IMG/VR virus record: IMGVR_UViG_3300023284_000011
Coordinates: 1-20,628 of that record
Length of the DNA: 20,628 bases
Reading direction: 5' to 3' (one strand)
Origin: a virus
Shown: positions 13,958 to 20,628 of the stretch, piece after piece
How the letters are laid out: every line of letters starts with the position of its first letter
Position numbering within the stretch: the first letter of the stretch is position 1
Program-made: the position numbers and the translations under genes
Notes under the pieces: generated by a model
Database searches by the model: none
Seen by the model: only the letters and a program-made list of their open reading frames with translations
What the model was told of the DNA's origin: nothing

Positions 13958-14146
13958 TTATCCAATTACTCCTGTCTTTATGTTTAATCTTTGCTGACTT
14001 GATAAGTGATATAAATTGCACCACTTGCAGTAATAAGATCTAACCGGTATTTTATCATTTTTGTTTTTCTTGCTCTTTTTAACATGCTGGGCATTTACTA
14101 TTGAATATAAAGCACCCATTTTTGTGTATTTGCGTTTCTTACACAT
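13958..14146 (-). CDS. Small basic protein with CxxC motif
   Basis: 62 residues, strongly basic (MCKKRKYTKMGALYSIVNAQ, KKSKKNKNDK). A C40-x2-C43 pair followed by H47 (YYCKWCNLYHLSS) suggests half of a zinc finger, perhaps with a further ligand such as C2. AAGGAG lies about 10 bases before the ATG. The start overlaps the stop of the upstream HTH-like gene by 8 bases. The basic character and likely zinc site fit nucleic-acid binding; that is inference. No named family is recognised. Confidence 0.6.
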   Translation of the reverse strand: MCKKRKYTKMGALYSIVNAQHVKKSKKNKNDKIPVRSYYCKWCNLYHLSSQQRLNIKTGVIG

Positions 14147-14393
14147 AATCTAACCACTCCTTAATCGTAAATAATTCAAAGCCATTTAGCTTACTTTGTT
14201 TTTCAAACTCTACTTGGTTTCTATCTAGGTCTACCAACAGTTCAATTACAGGCATACCGTTATCAAGCCATCTGATGACTGTATTAGCTTTAAGTCCGAA
14301 ATAATTAGCACATTGAGCCTTACCACTAAAGTGTAGTTCCTCTTCCGTCATAGGGTTATAAGCTACTACCTTTATAGCTTTTTGAGTTGCCAT
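14139..14393 (-). CDS. Probable DNA-binding (helix-turn-helix-like) early protein
   Basis: 84 residues from ATG 14393, with AAAGGAG 8 bases upstream. Residues about 24-48 (GKAQCANYFGLKANTVIRWL then DNGMPV) read as a helix-turn-helix in which the domain recognises DNA through the second helix, similar to NUMOD1-like or excisionase-like short DNA-binding modules. The N-terminus is a short beta strand (KAIKVVAYNPMT). It is the first gene after the promoter at 14426-14454, a good place for a regulator of late or middle transcription. The DNA-binding call is moderate; no target is visible. Confidence 0.65.
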   Translation of the reverse strand: MATQKAIKVVAYNPMTEEELHFSGKAQCANYFGLKANTVIRWLDNGMPVIELLVDLDRNQVEFEKQSKLNGFELFTIKEWLDYV

Positions 14394-14425: not shown

Positions 14426-14454
14426 ATTATATAAAAAAAAGTTCATACTGTCAA
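14426..14454 (-). promoter_or_regulatory. Strong sigma-A promoter for the terminal early operon
   Basis: On the - strand TTGACA (14454-14449) is separated by 17 bases from TATAAT (14431-14426), both perfect consensus. The first gene starts 33 bases downstream of the -10. The -35 hexamer is also the loop of an upstream terminator hairpin (14433-14464). Confidence 0.88.
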
Positions 14455-14464
14455 GCATAAACTT
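14433..14464 (-). terminator. Intrinsic terminator whose loop is the next promoter's -35
   Basis: On the - strand AAGTTTATGC (14464-14455) pairs with GTATGAACTT (14448-14439), 10 bp including two G-U pairs. The 6-base loop is exactly TTGACA (14454-14449), and six T follow (14438-14433). It lies 9 bases after the stop of the DUF3310-like gene. The stem is AT-rich, so efficiency may be moderate. Confidence 0.7.
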
Positions 14465-14473
14465 TATTATCAA

Positions 14474-14955: not shown

Positions 14956-15845
14956 ATATTAACTCCCTTAACCATAAATAATTTCTCACATTTATCATTT
15001 CTTGTTCCGCCTTGAATGGTGCTACGTGCTTTATCAAAAGAATATACAACTTCAAAACGTTCATCTGAAATTGAATAACTTGAAATTATCACGATATTGG
15101 CCTTAGCTATTTCAAATGCCCAGTTATAAAACTCTTGACTATCAAATGAATTGATATAACTTTCTTGGTAACTACCCTCATAAGGAGGATCAAGATATAA
15201 TATAGCTCCAGAAACTTCGCTAAAATCATGATAACTTTTATTCGTTGCTTTTATTTTATTTAATTGCTGGAGTCGTTCAAGTTGTTGAAGTTGTTGAAGT
15301 TGTTCAAGTTGTTTAAGTTTTTGAAGTTGTTCAAGTTGTTTGTACTTTTCAATCGATCTCTTATATGTTTCGGTCTGTTTATAACCACTAAAAACGTCAT
15401 GCTTTTCGATAATTTCTTTAGCTAGATTATATTTCAAATCTGATTTTTCTTTGTTGTATAAATATCGCAACTTATTATTACCAAAAGAGTTTACTAGCAA
15501 CTTCAAAAAATCATCTGTCGTCTTGTTTTCTTTCGCTTCAATCTCTAAAAACTCCGTACGTGAAACAATAAGAGTTTTTATCCACTCACGGTCTTGTGAT
15601 ATAACTCGTTCAAATGCGTTGGTTATATCCTTGTCCAAGTCATTATAATGCACTTCTAAGCCATTTAAAACACATTCGGCTGTAATTGCTCCACCACCTC
15701 CGAAGATGTCGTATATCGGCTTATCTGTGCCAAAGTTTTGTTTGATAATTTCAATAATCTTCTTGCTTATCTTTTTCTTGCTCCCTTGGTACGGTAGTCC
15801 AATCGGTCTACCTTTTCTGATTTTCTTCTCGTCTAAATTAAGCAC
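14952..15845 (-). CDS. D12-class adenine-N6 DNA methyltransferase
   Basis: A 297-residue Dam/DpnM-type enzyme. Motif X is YQGSKKKIS (19-27), motif I DIFGGGG (46-52, S-adenosylmethionine binding), motif IV DPPY (219-222, catalytic); the order and spacing fit the alpha/D12 class. It transfers a methyl group to adenine N6 in a short DNA site, probably protecting phage DNA from a host restriction enzyme that recognises GATC-like sites; the target is not readable. Residues 171-197 are nine Leu-x-x triplets, inserted in the region between motifs I and IV where this class carries its target-recognition part. Start GTG 15845 has AAGG 4 bases upstream and overlaps the Cys-rich gene by 8 bases. No cognate nuclease is seen. 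Confidence 0.9.
   Translation of the reverse strand: MLNLDEKKIRKGRPIGLPYQGSKKKISKKIIEIIKQNFGTDKPIYDIFGGGGAITAECVLNGLEVHYNDLDKDITNAFERVISQDREWIKTLIVSRTEFLEIEAKENKTTDDFLKLLVNSFGNNKLRYLYNKEKSDLKYNLAKEIIEKHDVFSGYKQTETYKRSIEKYKQLEQLQKLKQLEQLQQLQQLERLQQLNKIKATNKSYHDFSEVSGAILYLDPPYEGSYQESYINSFDSQEFYNWAFEIAKANIVIISSYSISDERFEVVYSFDKARSTIQGGTRNDKCEKLFMVKGVNI
15255..15335 (-). repeat. 9-bp tandem repeat encoding (Leu-x-x)9 in the methylase
   Basis: Nine consecutive triplets LEQ LQK LKQ LEQ LQQ LQQ LER LQQ LNK. The first seven use CTT for Leu and mostly CAA/GAA after it, so the DNA is a near-perfect 9-bp repeat (CTTCAACAA type); the last two use CTC and TTA. Such a tract can gain or lose in-frame units by slippage. 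Confidence 0.9.
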
Positions 15846-16114: not shown

Positions 16115-16143
16115 ATTATAAGCTATTTCTTTTTAATTATCAA
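16115..16143 (-). promoter_or_regulatory. Sigma-A promoter for the Cys-rich/methylase operon
   Basis: TTGATA (16143-16138), 17 bases, TATAAT (16120-16115) on the - strand. The -35 and spacer lie in the last codons of the upstream zinc-ribbon gene, and its TAG (16125-16123) falls in the spacer. No terminator hairpin with a U-tract separates the two genes, so readthrough is expected. Confidence 0.78.
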
Positions 16144-16425
16144 GCGAAAAGCACGATAAACCACTAATAAAATAATTGTTATTATAAATAGCGGTGGAAT
16201 AAATACAGTTACAGCAAACCAAATAATAGATACTAAAGTATAGATCATGATTTTAAGTATTAATTTACCAGCATGAGTTTCTTGAAACCTAAGTTCTGTA
16301 TAAGTTGTTTCTTGTTCTTTTTGCTCCTCAAAAATAGTTTCCGTTTCATAATGATTGCCACAATAATCACATTTACCATTAGTGAAACTTGAAGCCCCAC
16401 AGGTTACGCATTGTTTTAATTCCAT
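16123..16425 (-). CDS. Zinc-ribbon membrane protein
   Basis: 100 residues from ATG 16425, with a purine-rich AAGAAAGAGAG ribosome site. The N-terminus holds a zinc ribbon (C6xxC9 ... C19xxC22: QCVTCG and CDYCG), like the short zinc ribbons that head many membrane proteins of Firmicutes. Residues about 30-52 are a Glu/Thr-rich linker. Two hydrophobic spans follow (about 55-76 and 77-95) and a basic end RLIIKKK. The likely topology has both termini in the cytoplasm. It is a single-gene transcription unit from the promoter at 16459-16488, reading through to the methylase operon. An early membrane protein with a zinc ribbon may sense or modify the envelope; function unknown. Confidence 0.7.
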   Translation of the reverse strand: MELKQCVTCGASSFTNGKCDYCGNHYETETIFEEQKEQETTYTELRFQETHAGKLILKIMIYTLVSIIWFAVTVFIPPLFIITIILLVVYRAFRLIIKKK

Positions 16426-16458: not shown

Positions 16459-16488
16459 ATTATAACAAAAAAAACTCTAAGCTGCAAA
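16459..16488 (-). promoter_or_regulatory. Extended -10 promoter for the zinc-ribbon gene
   Basis: TGTTATAAT with -10 TATAAT at 16464-16459 carries an upstream TG dinucleotide (extended -10). The best -35 is TTTGCA (16488-16483), 18 bases away and 4/6 to consensus. That hexamer is the loop of the terminator at 16467-16500. Confidence 0.65.
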
Positions 16489-16500
16489 GCCTAAAGTCTT
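16467..16500 (-). terminator. Intrinsic terminator of the SSB/Sak3 operon
   Basis: On the - strand CTTTAGGC (16496-16489) pairs with GCTTAGAG (16482-16475), 8 bp with two G-U pairs; it is extended by AAGA/TTTT to about 12 bp. The 6-base loop is TTTGCA and the U-tract is eight T (16474-16467). It begins 9 bases after the stop of the upstream gene. Confidence 0.85.
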
Positions 16501-17600: not shown

Positions 17601-18167
17601 TTATTCTCCTTTTTTCGCTTCTTGCTGTGCTTTCCAAATTGTCATGATATCAAAGATTTCTTTTTTTGTCTTTGTTTTCAAGTTCTCAATGTTTTCATAT
17701 CCTAGCTGTTCAGCTCGTTTGATAAGTGGTTGAATTTCACGAAGTCGTTGCTTTTCAGCTTCCAATTCTTTCTGCTCTTCTGTCATGTCAGGAAGGTCTT
17801 CATTTGCGTAGATGTATAGCCCTAAACCATGACGAGCAATTGCCTTAACTAGTCCGCGTTGAATGGCTTTGTTAACATCCATTGAAGTCACTTTTTCAAG
17901 CGGGATAGATTGATTACGATAGTCCATCACAGGAAGGTATTCGATATGCTCTAAACCCTCAATAGTCATACCAACCTTAACCCATGCTGTACGACCGTCT
18001 GTATGATAGTTTAAACCTTGCTCATTTTCATAAACTTTACTATTTGCTTCAGGATAAACTTTTTTTACCTCAGACCAAGCGAACGCCCAACTCAGATAGT
18101 CAAGATTATTCTTTTTACTTTTTTTGTCATTAACATTAATGATGCTTAAGGTTTCAAATACGCTCAT
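17601..18167 (-). CDS. sak3: Sak3 single-strand annealing recombinase (DUF1071)
   Basis: 188 residues starting MSVFETLSIINVNDKKSKKN. The core YLSWAFAWSEVKKVYPEA, LNYHTDGRTAWVKVG, HIEYLPVMDYRNQSI and DVNKAIQRGLVKAIARHGLG is the DUF1071/Sak3 signature. The p2 homologue (ORF35) has been reported as an ATPase involved in recombination and in sensitivity to the abortive infection system AbiK, with mutations escaping AbiK. The C-terminal 60 residues are charged and helical (EEQKELEAEKQRLREIQPLI). It starts in an ATGA overlap with a 36-residue gene. It would anneal complementary ssDNA during phage recombination, working with the SSB. The AbiK link is family knowledge and not read from this sequence. 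Confidence 0.9.
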   Translation of the reverse strand: MSVFETLSIINVNDKKSKKNNLDYLSWAFAWSEVKKVYPEANSKVYENEQGLNYHTDGRTAWVKVGMTIEGLEHIEYLPVMDYRNQSIPLEKVTSMDVNKAIQRGLVKAIARHGLGLYIYANEDLPDMTEEQKELEAEKQRLREIQPLIKRAEQLGYENIENLKTKTKKEIFDIMTIWKAQQEAKKGE

Positions 18168-19089: not shown

Positions 19090-19234
19090 TTTTTGCTCTT
19101 TCTATTAATTGGAAGTCATCACTATATAAAACAGGTTTTGAATATTGTTCATTCATATTAAACCTTGAATAATAGTCATAGAAGTATTCATTTACTTTTT
19201 CGTGATAGTAAACAACGTATTTTTTATCACTCAT
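19052..19234 (-). CDS. Hypothetical Tyr-rich small protein
   Basis: 60 residues from ATG 19234 (MSDKKYVVYYHEKVNEYFYD), rich in Tyr in the first half (VVYYHEKVNEYFYDYYSRF) and ending in a charged helix (ERAKNELNERLQEQSY). The start overlaps the ATPase stop by 8 bases; AAAGG lies about 10 bases upstream inside the ATPase gene. It is probably coupled to the ATPase. Function unknown. Confidence 0.63.
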   Translation of the reverse strand: MSDKKYVVYYHEKVNEYFYDYYSRFNMNEQYSKPVLYSDDFQLIERAKNELNERLQEQSY

Positions 19235-20123
19235 TTTCTATTACCTTTCCTTGCTCTTTAGCTAAGTCTAAGAAAGCCTGTGCTGATTCTTTCGTCGTTT
19301 CTAATGGAGTTTCCTGTTTGACTTTTTCAACTAGTTCGCTATCTGGTTCTTTTTTAGATTTATTGACACAAGTAAATACTGAATCAACGTAAGAAAAGTT
19401 TAAATCATCATCAAACTGGTAACCACGCGCTTTTACTGTTAACTTAGAGAAGTCGTTATGCTTGCCACGTTTAGGGCTTAGCATTAACATAAACTCTGCC
19501 CAAGCTGTAAGAGTAGAACCACCTAAGGCGTCACTAGGCTTTACAATATAGGTTTTATCGTCCATTGAGTTTGCATAAGCTGATTTGTTTGCATGAGCTA
19601 CTAACAAGAAAGTGACATCTTGGAAAAGTAATTTAAGCCGTGTAATTCTTCTAAGCATTGGTTCAAAGTCTTTACTGTAGATAATATCGCCATCTCTTAG
19701 CATTGTCATAAGGTTGTCTAAAATAACGAACTTGATATCATTTTCTTTGATGTACTCATACAATAAATTCATGTGGTGTGAATCATCAAGCATAAACTCG
19801 CCACCTGTTAAGAAATGCAAGTCTTCTGGCGCAGTGTCTTTATTTCTGAGCCTTTTGTTTAGTTCTCTGTCTGTGTCCTCATTGTCGATGTATAGTGTCT
19901 TACTACGCTTTGTATCATAACCAAAAAAAGGTAACCCTTGCGACACCATCAACGCCATGTGCATTGCTAGAGAGCTTTTAAACGACTTAAACGGTGCTAC
20001 AAGTATTCCAGCTTGCGAACTTGGCATTAAAGTATCAATAAGCCAGTCATCTTTTAAATTTATTAAGTCTTCTCGCTCTTTTAAGTGCTTAGCTGTCTGC
20101 ACTTTATCAAATATGTTAGTCAT
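19227..20123 (-). CDS. RepA/AAA_25-like P-loop ATPase (replication helicase or recombinase)
   Basis: 298 residues from ATG 20123 (MTNIFDKVQTAKHLKEREDL), with AAAGGAG 7 bases upstream; a longer open frame to 20192 has no ribosome site and would run into the terminator. Walker A lies at A43 PFKSFKS50 (both usual glycines replaced, Lys49 and Ser50 kept), then YIDNED (about 95) and a Walker B-type segment FVILDNL (about 155). It resembles RecA-fold RepA/AAA_25 ATPases, in which an aromatic residue often precedes the Lys. It would act in phage DNA replication or recombination with SSB and Sak3. The C-terminal region is acidic and variable. It is the first gene after promoter 20142-20170. Confidence 0.78.
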   Translation of the reverse strand: MTNIFDKVQTAKHLKEREDLINLKDDWLIDTLMPSSQAGILVAPFKSFKSSLAMHMALMVSQGLPFFGYDTKRSKTLYIDNEDTDRELNKRLRNKDTAPEDLHFLTGGEFMLDDSHHMNLLYEYIKENDIKFVILDNLMTMLRDGDIIYSKDFEPMLRRITRLKLLFQDVTFLLVAHANKSAYANSMDDKTYIVKPSDALGGSTLTAWAEFMLMLSPKRGKHNDFSKLTVKARGYQFDDDLNFSYVDSVFTCVNKSKKEPDSELVEKVKQETPLETTKESAQAFLDLAKEQGKVIENE

Positions 20124-20141
20124 TTTTTTCTCCTTTAGTAT

Positions 20142-20170
20142 ATAATAACAAAAAAGACTTGAAAAGTCAA
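20142..20170 (-). promoter_or_regulatory. Promoter for the ATPase operon, within a terminator hairpin
   Basis: TTGACT (20170-20165), 17 bases, TATTAT (20147-20142) on the - strand, 5/6 matches in each box. The -35 uses the last four stem bases and first two loop bases of the hairpin at 20150-20175. The ATPase ATG is 19 bases past the -10. Confidence 0.75.
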
Positions 20171-20175
20171 GCCTT
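20150..20175 (-). terminator. Terminator hairpin before the ATPase gene
   Basis: AAGGCTTGA (20175-20167) pairs with TCAAGTCTT (20162-20154), 9 bp with one G-U, loop CTTT; T continues to 20150. It ends transcription of the 73-residue gene 41 bases upstream. The sequence is part of a 31-bp repeat shared with 20464-20494. Confidence 0.78.
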
Positions 20176-20216
20176 AAGTCTATTAAGTTCATAAATGTGT
20201 AGCCATAAGCAATAGG

Positions 20217-20438
20217 TTAGTCACTAGTTACCTCCATTGGCTCTGATTCTACGCAATAAACTTTGAATGGTTTTTCTTCTTTTGCTCCATTTCCAAAGAA
20301 TAGCTCCCATTGATAATTTAATAAAACGCAAGTCTTAATAGCTTCGTGTTTTTTTGTATAAAGAGACAATCGTTTTCCGCTATAATTTTTAGCCACCATG
20401 TCTTTATTAGTTGTTGGTGCAACATAGTAAATTTTCAT
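20217..20438 (-). CDS. Hypothetical early protein
   Basis: 73 residues from ATG 20438 (MKIYYVAPTTNKDMVAKNYS), with AAAGGAG 7 bases upstream. It is a mixed alpha/beta protein (KTCVLLNYQWELFFGNG, PFKVYCVESEPMEV). It is a single-gene unit between two copies of the same terminator-promoter element. No family is recognised. The gap from 20124 to 20216 to the next gene holds only that terminator-promoter element and AT-rich filler. Confidence 0.68.
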   Translation of the reverse strand: MKIYYVAPTTNKDMVAKNYSGKRLSLYTKKHEAIKTCVLLNYQWELFFGNGAKEEKPFKVYCVESEPMEVTSD

Positions 20439-20456
20439 TTTTTTCTCCTTTATTAT

Positions 20457-20485
20457 ATAATATCAAAAAAGACTTGAAAAGTCAA
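20457..20485 (-). promoter_or_regulatory. Promoter for the 73-residue gene, within a terminator hairpin
   Basis: TTGACT (20485-20480), 17 bases, TATTAT (20462-20457) on the - strand. The arrangement is the same as at 20142-20170, with the -35 in the hairpin 20465-20490. The ATG is 19 bases past the -10. Confidence 0.75.
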
Positions 20486-20494
20486 GCCTTAAGT
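20464..20494 (-). repeat. 31-bp direct repeat, second copy (first at 20149-20179)
   Basis: 31 identical bases, same orientation, 315 bp apart, each containing a terminator stem-loop and a promoter -35. Flanking bases and coding sequences differ, so the element is duplicated as a regulatory unit. Confidence 0.95.
20465..20490 (-). terminator. Terminator hairpin after the right-edge gene
   Basis: The same 9-bp stem (20490-20482 with 20477-20469), CTTT loop and T run as at 20150-20175. It lies 5 bases after the stop of the edge gene. Confidence 0.78.
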
Positions 20495-20495
20495 G

Positions 20496-20628
20496 CTATT
20501 TAATGCAATGTTTACATTTAGGGTCATCTACATGGATATATTCTTTTACAACTTCTTTTTTTAAACTTTTTATTCTAAGTTGTTCTTTTTTTAAGTCCAT
20601 GCAGTGTGATATTGACCAGCCACAACCA
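20496..20628 (-). CDS. Hypothetical early protein with Cys pairs, 5' end outside window
   Basis: An open frame enters from the right edge and ends at TAG 20498-20496, giving 43 codons. The residues include CGWSISHC near the edge, a Lys-rich helix (MDLKKEQLRIKSLKKEVVKE) and the end DPKCKHCIK. The two Cys groups (CxxxxxxC and CKHC) could form one zinc site around a helix. An internal ATG at 20600 has no ribosome site, so the gene very probably begins outside the window. Function unknown; it would be another small Cys-bearing early protein. Confidence 0.55.
   Translation of the reverse strand, partial: GCGWSISHCMDLKKEQLRIKSLKKEVVKEYIHVDDPKCKHCIK

Follow-up and report, generated by a model that had tools for sequence, protein, structure and literature searches.

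Merged terminator-promoter elements predicted between the early genes of Skunavirus phages

In T4-like phages, an early promoter and a terminator stem-loop form composite elements known as promoter early stem-loops or PeSLs (Arbiol 2010 and Comeau 2014, cited in PMC4503421). PeSLs are repeated between early genes, and genes are shuffled there between related phages; recombination into small circles is a further trait of the class. In halovirus HF2, intergenic repeats of 29 and 58 bp have promoter activity and keep their position across the genus, but HF2 is an archaeal virus, and the abstract of that paper reports promoter activity only and describes no merged terminator (PMC8707807). The third point of comparison is the sk1 record (GenBank AF011378), which annotates seven early promoters (E1-E7). 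It has no annotated terminators at E2 and E3, whereas the layout that we describe here pairs a predicted terminator with a promoter. We found no report in open-licence papers of merged sites, or of a joint role for them, in lactococcal phages.

We propose, with a probability of roughly 0.8, that each copy of a short repeat in a 936-type phage is a merged terminator-promoter that insulates early units and also provides about 57 bp of homology for exchange. PeSLs and the Skunavirus elements are both small composites of a promoter and a stem-loop, both are present in several copies between early genes, and both are sites of gene shuffling. The hosts, the phages, and the sequences are unrelated, though, and the arrangement differs. 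In the first 50 kb of RB49, we found three tight hairpin-promoter pairs, with the -35 starting 12-16 bp after the hairpin. In these PeSL-type pairs the promoter is beside the stem-loop, while in the Skunavirus elements the hairpin contains the -35, and the U-tract forms part of the spacer. We did not find the merged architecture in c2, in Q54, or in the first 50 kb of RB49. By analogy, the Skunavirus elements would work like PeSLs, yet in merged form, and we do not class them as PeSLs. Their terminator role is predicted from the hairpin, the U-tract, and covariation.

The repeat and its setting

The window, which is the entire 20,628-bp stretch of DNA that we analyzed, is a fragment of a 936-type Lactococcus phage (Skunavirus). 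The region is matched by 370 phage records, every one of them from a Lactococcus phage or Skunavirus. The early genes of the window are on the minus strand, and the features that matter here are:

20496-20627, minus strand: upstream gene (phrog_4505); its 5' end is cut by the window, and its stop is about 5 nt before the copy-1 hairpin
20436-20492, minus strand: family A cassette, copy 1 (predicted terminator hairpin, promoter, RBS, and start codon of the 73-aa gene)
20469-20490, minus strand: copy-1 hairpin, AAGGCTTGA/CTTT/TCAAGTCTT, with -35 TTGACT at 20480-20485 and -10 TATTAT at 20457-20462
20217-20438, minus strand: gene for a 73-aa hypothetical protein between the cassettes (phrog_2541)
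20121-20177, minus strand: family A cassette, copy 2, which runs up to the ATG of the ATPase gene
20154-20175, minus strand: copy-2 hairpin, with -35 at 20165-20170 and -10 at 20142-20147
19227-20123, minus strand: gene for an AAA ATPase (phrog_1284, Pfam AAA_25), downstream of copy 2 and with its ATG at the copy-2 end
17601-18167, minus strand: gene for a Sak-like single-strand annealing protein

A search of Pfam with the 73-aa phrog_2541 product gave zero matches. The phrog_1284 ATPase is often annotated as a DNA polymerase subunit. The Sak-like protein could be what drives recombination between short repeats. Another kind of repeat in the window, a run of tandem 9-nt repeats at 15255-15344, lies within a predicted D12-class DNA methyltransferase gene (an LQQLKQL-like run).

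A sequence-only reading of this DNA had reported an exact 31-nt repeat at 20149-20179 and 20464-20494 with one 73-residue gene between the copies, and we confirmed both points. The full repeat is longer, at 60 nt (20120-20179 and 20435-20494; 97% identity, spacing 315), and it continues through the RBS up to the start codon. That reading also placed a complete terminator stem-loop and a promoter (TTGACT, 17 bp, TATTAT) in each 31-mer; the hairpin and the -35 are there, but TATTAT is just outside the 31-mer and inside the 60-mer.

This repeat, which we call family A, reads on the minus strand throughout: a hairpin (AAGGCTTGA-CTTT-TCAAGTCTT) and then T's, with a promoter made of TTGACT, 17 bp, and TATTAT. 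In gene-strand order, the preceding gene's stop is followed by the hairpin, T's, TG-N-TATTAT, AAAGGAG, and the start codon. TTGACT is inside the hairpin and the T's are inside the 17-bp spacer. The folding energy of the hairpin is -9.1 kcal/mol (z = -4.2; 0 of 200 shuffles were equally stable). The promoters have 10-12 of 12 consensus matches, like a sigma-70-like early promoter.

Sibling families and pairing in their stems

We scanned for hairpins with a -35 inside them and a T tract at their end. The early strand of the window has four such sites and the opposite strand has zero; the shuffled early region had a mean of 0.03. Two of the four are the family A copies, and the others are a family B site at 16488 and a family C site at 14454:

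16459-16500, minus strand: family B merged terminator-promoter (predicted), ACTTTAGGCT..AGCTTAGAGT, with TTTGCA, 18 bp, and TATAAT, before a 100-aa gene at 16123-16425
14426-14465, minus strand: family C merged terminator-promoter (predicted), AAAGTTTATGCT TGAC AGTATGAACTTT, with TTGACA, 17 bp, and TATAAT, before an 84-aa gene at 14139-14393

The sequence-only reading had suggested that the repeat may recur further right, outside the window; the recurrence that we found is leftward, inside the window, and has different stem sequences. At least three sequence families share a common layout, and family A is one of these. In families B and C/D, the -35 TTGACA forms the closing pair and the tetraloop, while in family A the -35 is in the stem. 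Each of the 33 early regions has one or more of these T-tract promoters on its early strand, and the opposite strand has none. Family B is present in 35 of 35 records, in one or two copies, and precedes 10 types of downstream gene (5 for family C/D). With all families combined, each relative has up to 5 sites, between early genes.

We also gathered promoters with a T-tract spacer without requiring a hairpin. (The U-tract is part of this rule, but not of the homology search for family B.) All 150 distinct promoters of this kind belong to the hairpin families, and a few have damaged stems. The control set, TTGACA with a T tract but without a -10, had just four cases. Family A is too invariant for covariation. 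In family B, the arm pairs were 443 Watson-Crick, 139 G-U, 1 A-C, and 33 other; in family C/D, they were 282 Watson-Crick, 104 G-U, 0 A-C, and 10 other (in both, the rows are related and are not independent events). Across 25 distinct C/D sequences, 96.7% of cells were paired, versus 30-52% with the partner slid, and the covariation score was 0.37, versus 0.06-0.12 when slid (again with related rows). The two C/D arms change together in the way that RNA pairing requires, and TTGACA remains constant, so the hairpin and the promoter both look to be under selection. Because the hairpin is upstream of the start of its own promoter, it is present only in RNA from the preceding gene, which, along with the U-tract, suggests a terminator.

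The stem is not intact everywhere. E2 of sk1 is a family A site and E3 is a family B site, and both stems are damaged, which is why our strict scan missed sk1. (E5 and E6 look like plain promoters.) Stems are damaged with the promoter kept in sk1 E2 and in four of our other sites (L070, L087, L090, and L103), and sk1 is among those in which the family B 5' arm is damaged. Termination would therefore not always be kept.

Exchange, gain and loss at the cassette

To define the edges of the unit, we gathered 66 family A sites with full flanks from 936-type contigs and compared one representative of each of their 36 flank combinations. Where both flanks differ (506 pairs of sites), identity is about 1.0 over about 57 bp (about -8 to +48 from TTGAC) and about 0.3 just beyond this (background 0.31). 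The family A unit is thus about 57 bp and nearly invariant in relatives, and its downstream edge is the start codon. At the 66 sites, it joins 21 upstream flank types with 11 downstream gene types, and a single upstream flank type is paired with six downstream types. Two lineages of the ATPase are found behind the same cassette (about 95% and 43% identical to the ATPase of the window). With its reassorted flanks, empty sites, and scars, the family A cassette is a site of gene exchange between relatives.

The sequence-only reading proposed that the two copies could recombine and delete the gene, and three relatives are indeed in a gene-less state: the window minus exactly 315 bp (the gene and a cassette) aligns end to end with L076, L071, and L093 (459-460 bp, 93-95% identity, at most one gap). 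The direction is a separate matter, as the 315-bp difference would be compatible with either loss or gain. Immediately ahead of the cassette and ATPase gene of L069 and L043 is a fossil of an ATPase 5' end, about 61 nt long, with GGCTT as the short match at the joint. This suggests that a unit was replaced.

There are also cassette-free junctions. In five relatives (L083, L097, L103, L100, and L099), the 73-aa gene and the start of the ATPase gene overlap (GTGACTAG or GTGACTAA). The TGACTAAC repeat of the window could be the deletion joint for such a 73-aa/ATPase junction. At a place that is cassette-free in LP9908, LP0509 carries an antirepressor-like gene together with a second cassette (L063 versus L064), and a dated series may show the gain. 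Earlier LP phages have one place that matches the query, while LP0509 and later ones have two (with dates inferred from their names).

Alternative readings and what the joint may mean

The sequence-only reading described a mobile part that ends one gene and starts the next. The end/start layout is supported by the sequence and by covariation, but independent hopping is not: among 50 whole records, family A has one copy in 48, two in LP0509, and zero in 88605. We rejected a mobile multicopy cassette because there are just 1-2 copies of family A per record. In GenBank phages, family A is at 332 places in 321 records, all from Lactococcus phages or Skunavirus; we found none in plasmids. Cellular genomes have three exact matches, all in contigs whose alignment to 936 phage DNA has about 86-95% identity. 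The matching assemblies are a Clostridia MAG, Staphylococcus caeli, and Oceanibaculum pacificum (L113, L114, and L115), and these contigs are probably phage contamination. That the cassette is a transposable element in its own right is thus extremely improbable. It does stand before many different genes, but it is restricted to Skunavirus-like sequence, it is a 57-bp non-coding unit that nearly always has one copy at one locus and encodes no enzyme, and we saw no transposase or target duplication at family A sites.

The inverted repeat around the -35 could instead be the operator of a regulator from the phage or the host, with the hairpin being incidental. In favor of this, the -35 and the dyad overlap, and there is almost no variation in family A, but we think it quite unlikely: the non-Watson-Crick pairs in families B and C/D are G-U on the early strand and almost never A-C, which a DNA dyad would not predict, and the arms differ between families and are followed by a U-tract. 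A better contender, which we consider possible but less probable than our proposal, is that the conserved sequence is a strong early promoter and RBS that is kept for expression, and that shuffling is a side effect of sequence identity. This fits the annotated promoter in sk1 and the survival of the promoter where stems are damaged (sk1 E2 and L090), but it leaves the covarying arms unexplained. For the recombination part, a side effect is a plausible account. It has also been found that RNA polymerase often stays on the DNA after termination and can restart (PMC6978322). Here it would be released within about 20 bp of the next start, so termination on top of the next promoter might hand the polymerase directly to that promoter. 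We view such recycling as unlikely, as the restart in PMC6978322 is usually in the reverse direction.

The layout is not confined to Skunavirus. In viral contigs, a scan with the T-tract promoter pattern (with no hairpin required) gave at least 220 distinct matches, and among the matches listed (L121-L358), 48 of 220 had a hairpin over the -35, as compared to 7.2 expected from local shuffles. The stems differ widely. Lactococcus phage WRP3 has seven merged sites with seven different stems on one strand (L359-L365), and a 72-kb contig has five with other stems; shuffles of either gave none. (Both were picked because they already had a match, so they do not measure how frequent the design is.) The same layout with unrelated stems in other phages suggests a general solution. 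It is a more doubtful step to treat terminators whose own hairpin holds the next -35 as a distinct control element, one with many separate origins in phages, on unrelated stems, and with end and start mechanically coupled.

Under the merged terminator-promoter that we propose, RNA polymerase from the upstream early gene would transcribe the hairpin and the U-tract and stop. The same DNA would carry the next -35, with the U-tract DNA as part of the spacer, and, from a TG-extended -10, the following early gene would be started some 12 nt ahead of its start codon. This would make every early gene or short operon an insulated unit. As the joint is nearly the same before many genes, it would also offer about 57 bp of homology for the exchange, insertion, or deletion of units, perhaps driven by the Sak annealing protein. 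The promoter role comes from the public record (E2 and E3 of sk1, GenBank AF011378), while we infer termination in vivo, insulation, and the involvement of Sak.

If so, the merged terminator-promoter is a compact part for ending one gene and starting the next, and a layout that is missed by annotation that seeks promoters and terminators separately. It would also be a concrete joint for gene turnover: related dairy phages have the same joint before many genes, and the genes there are swapped, gained, and lost.
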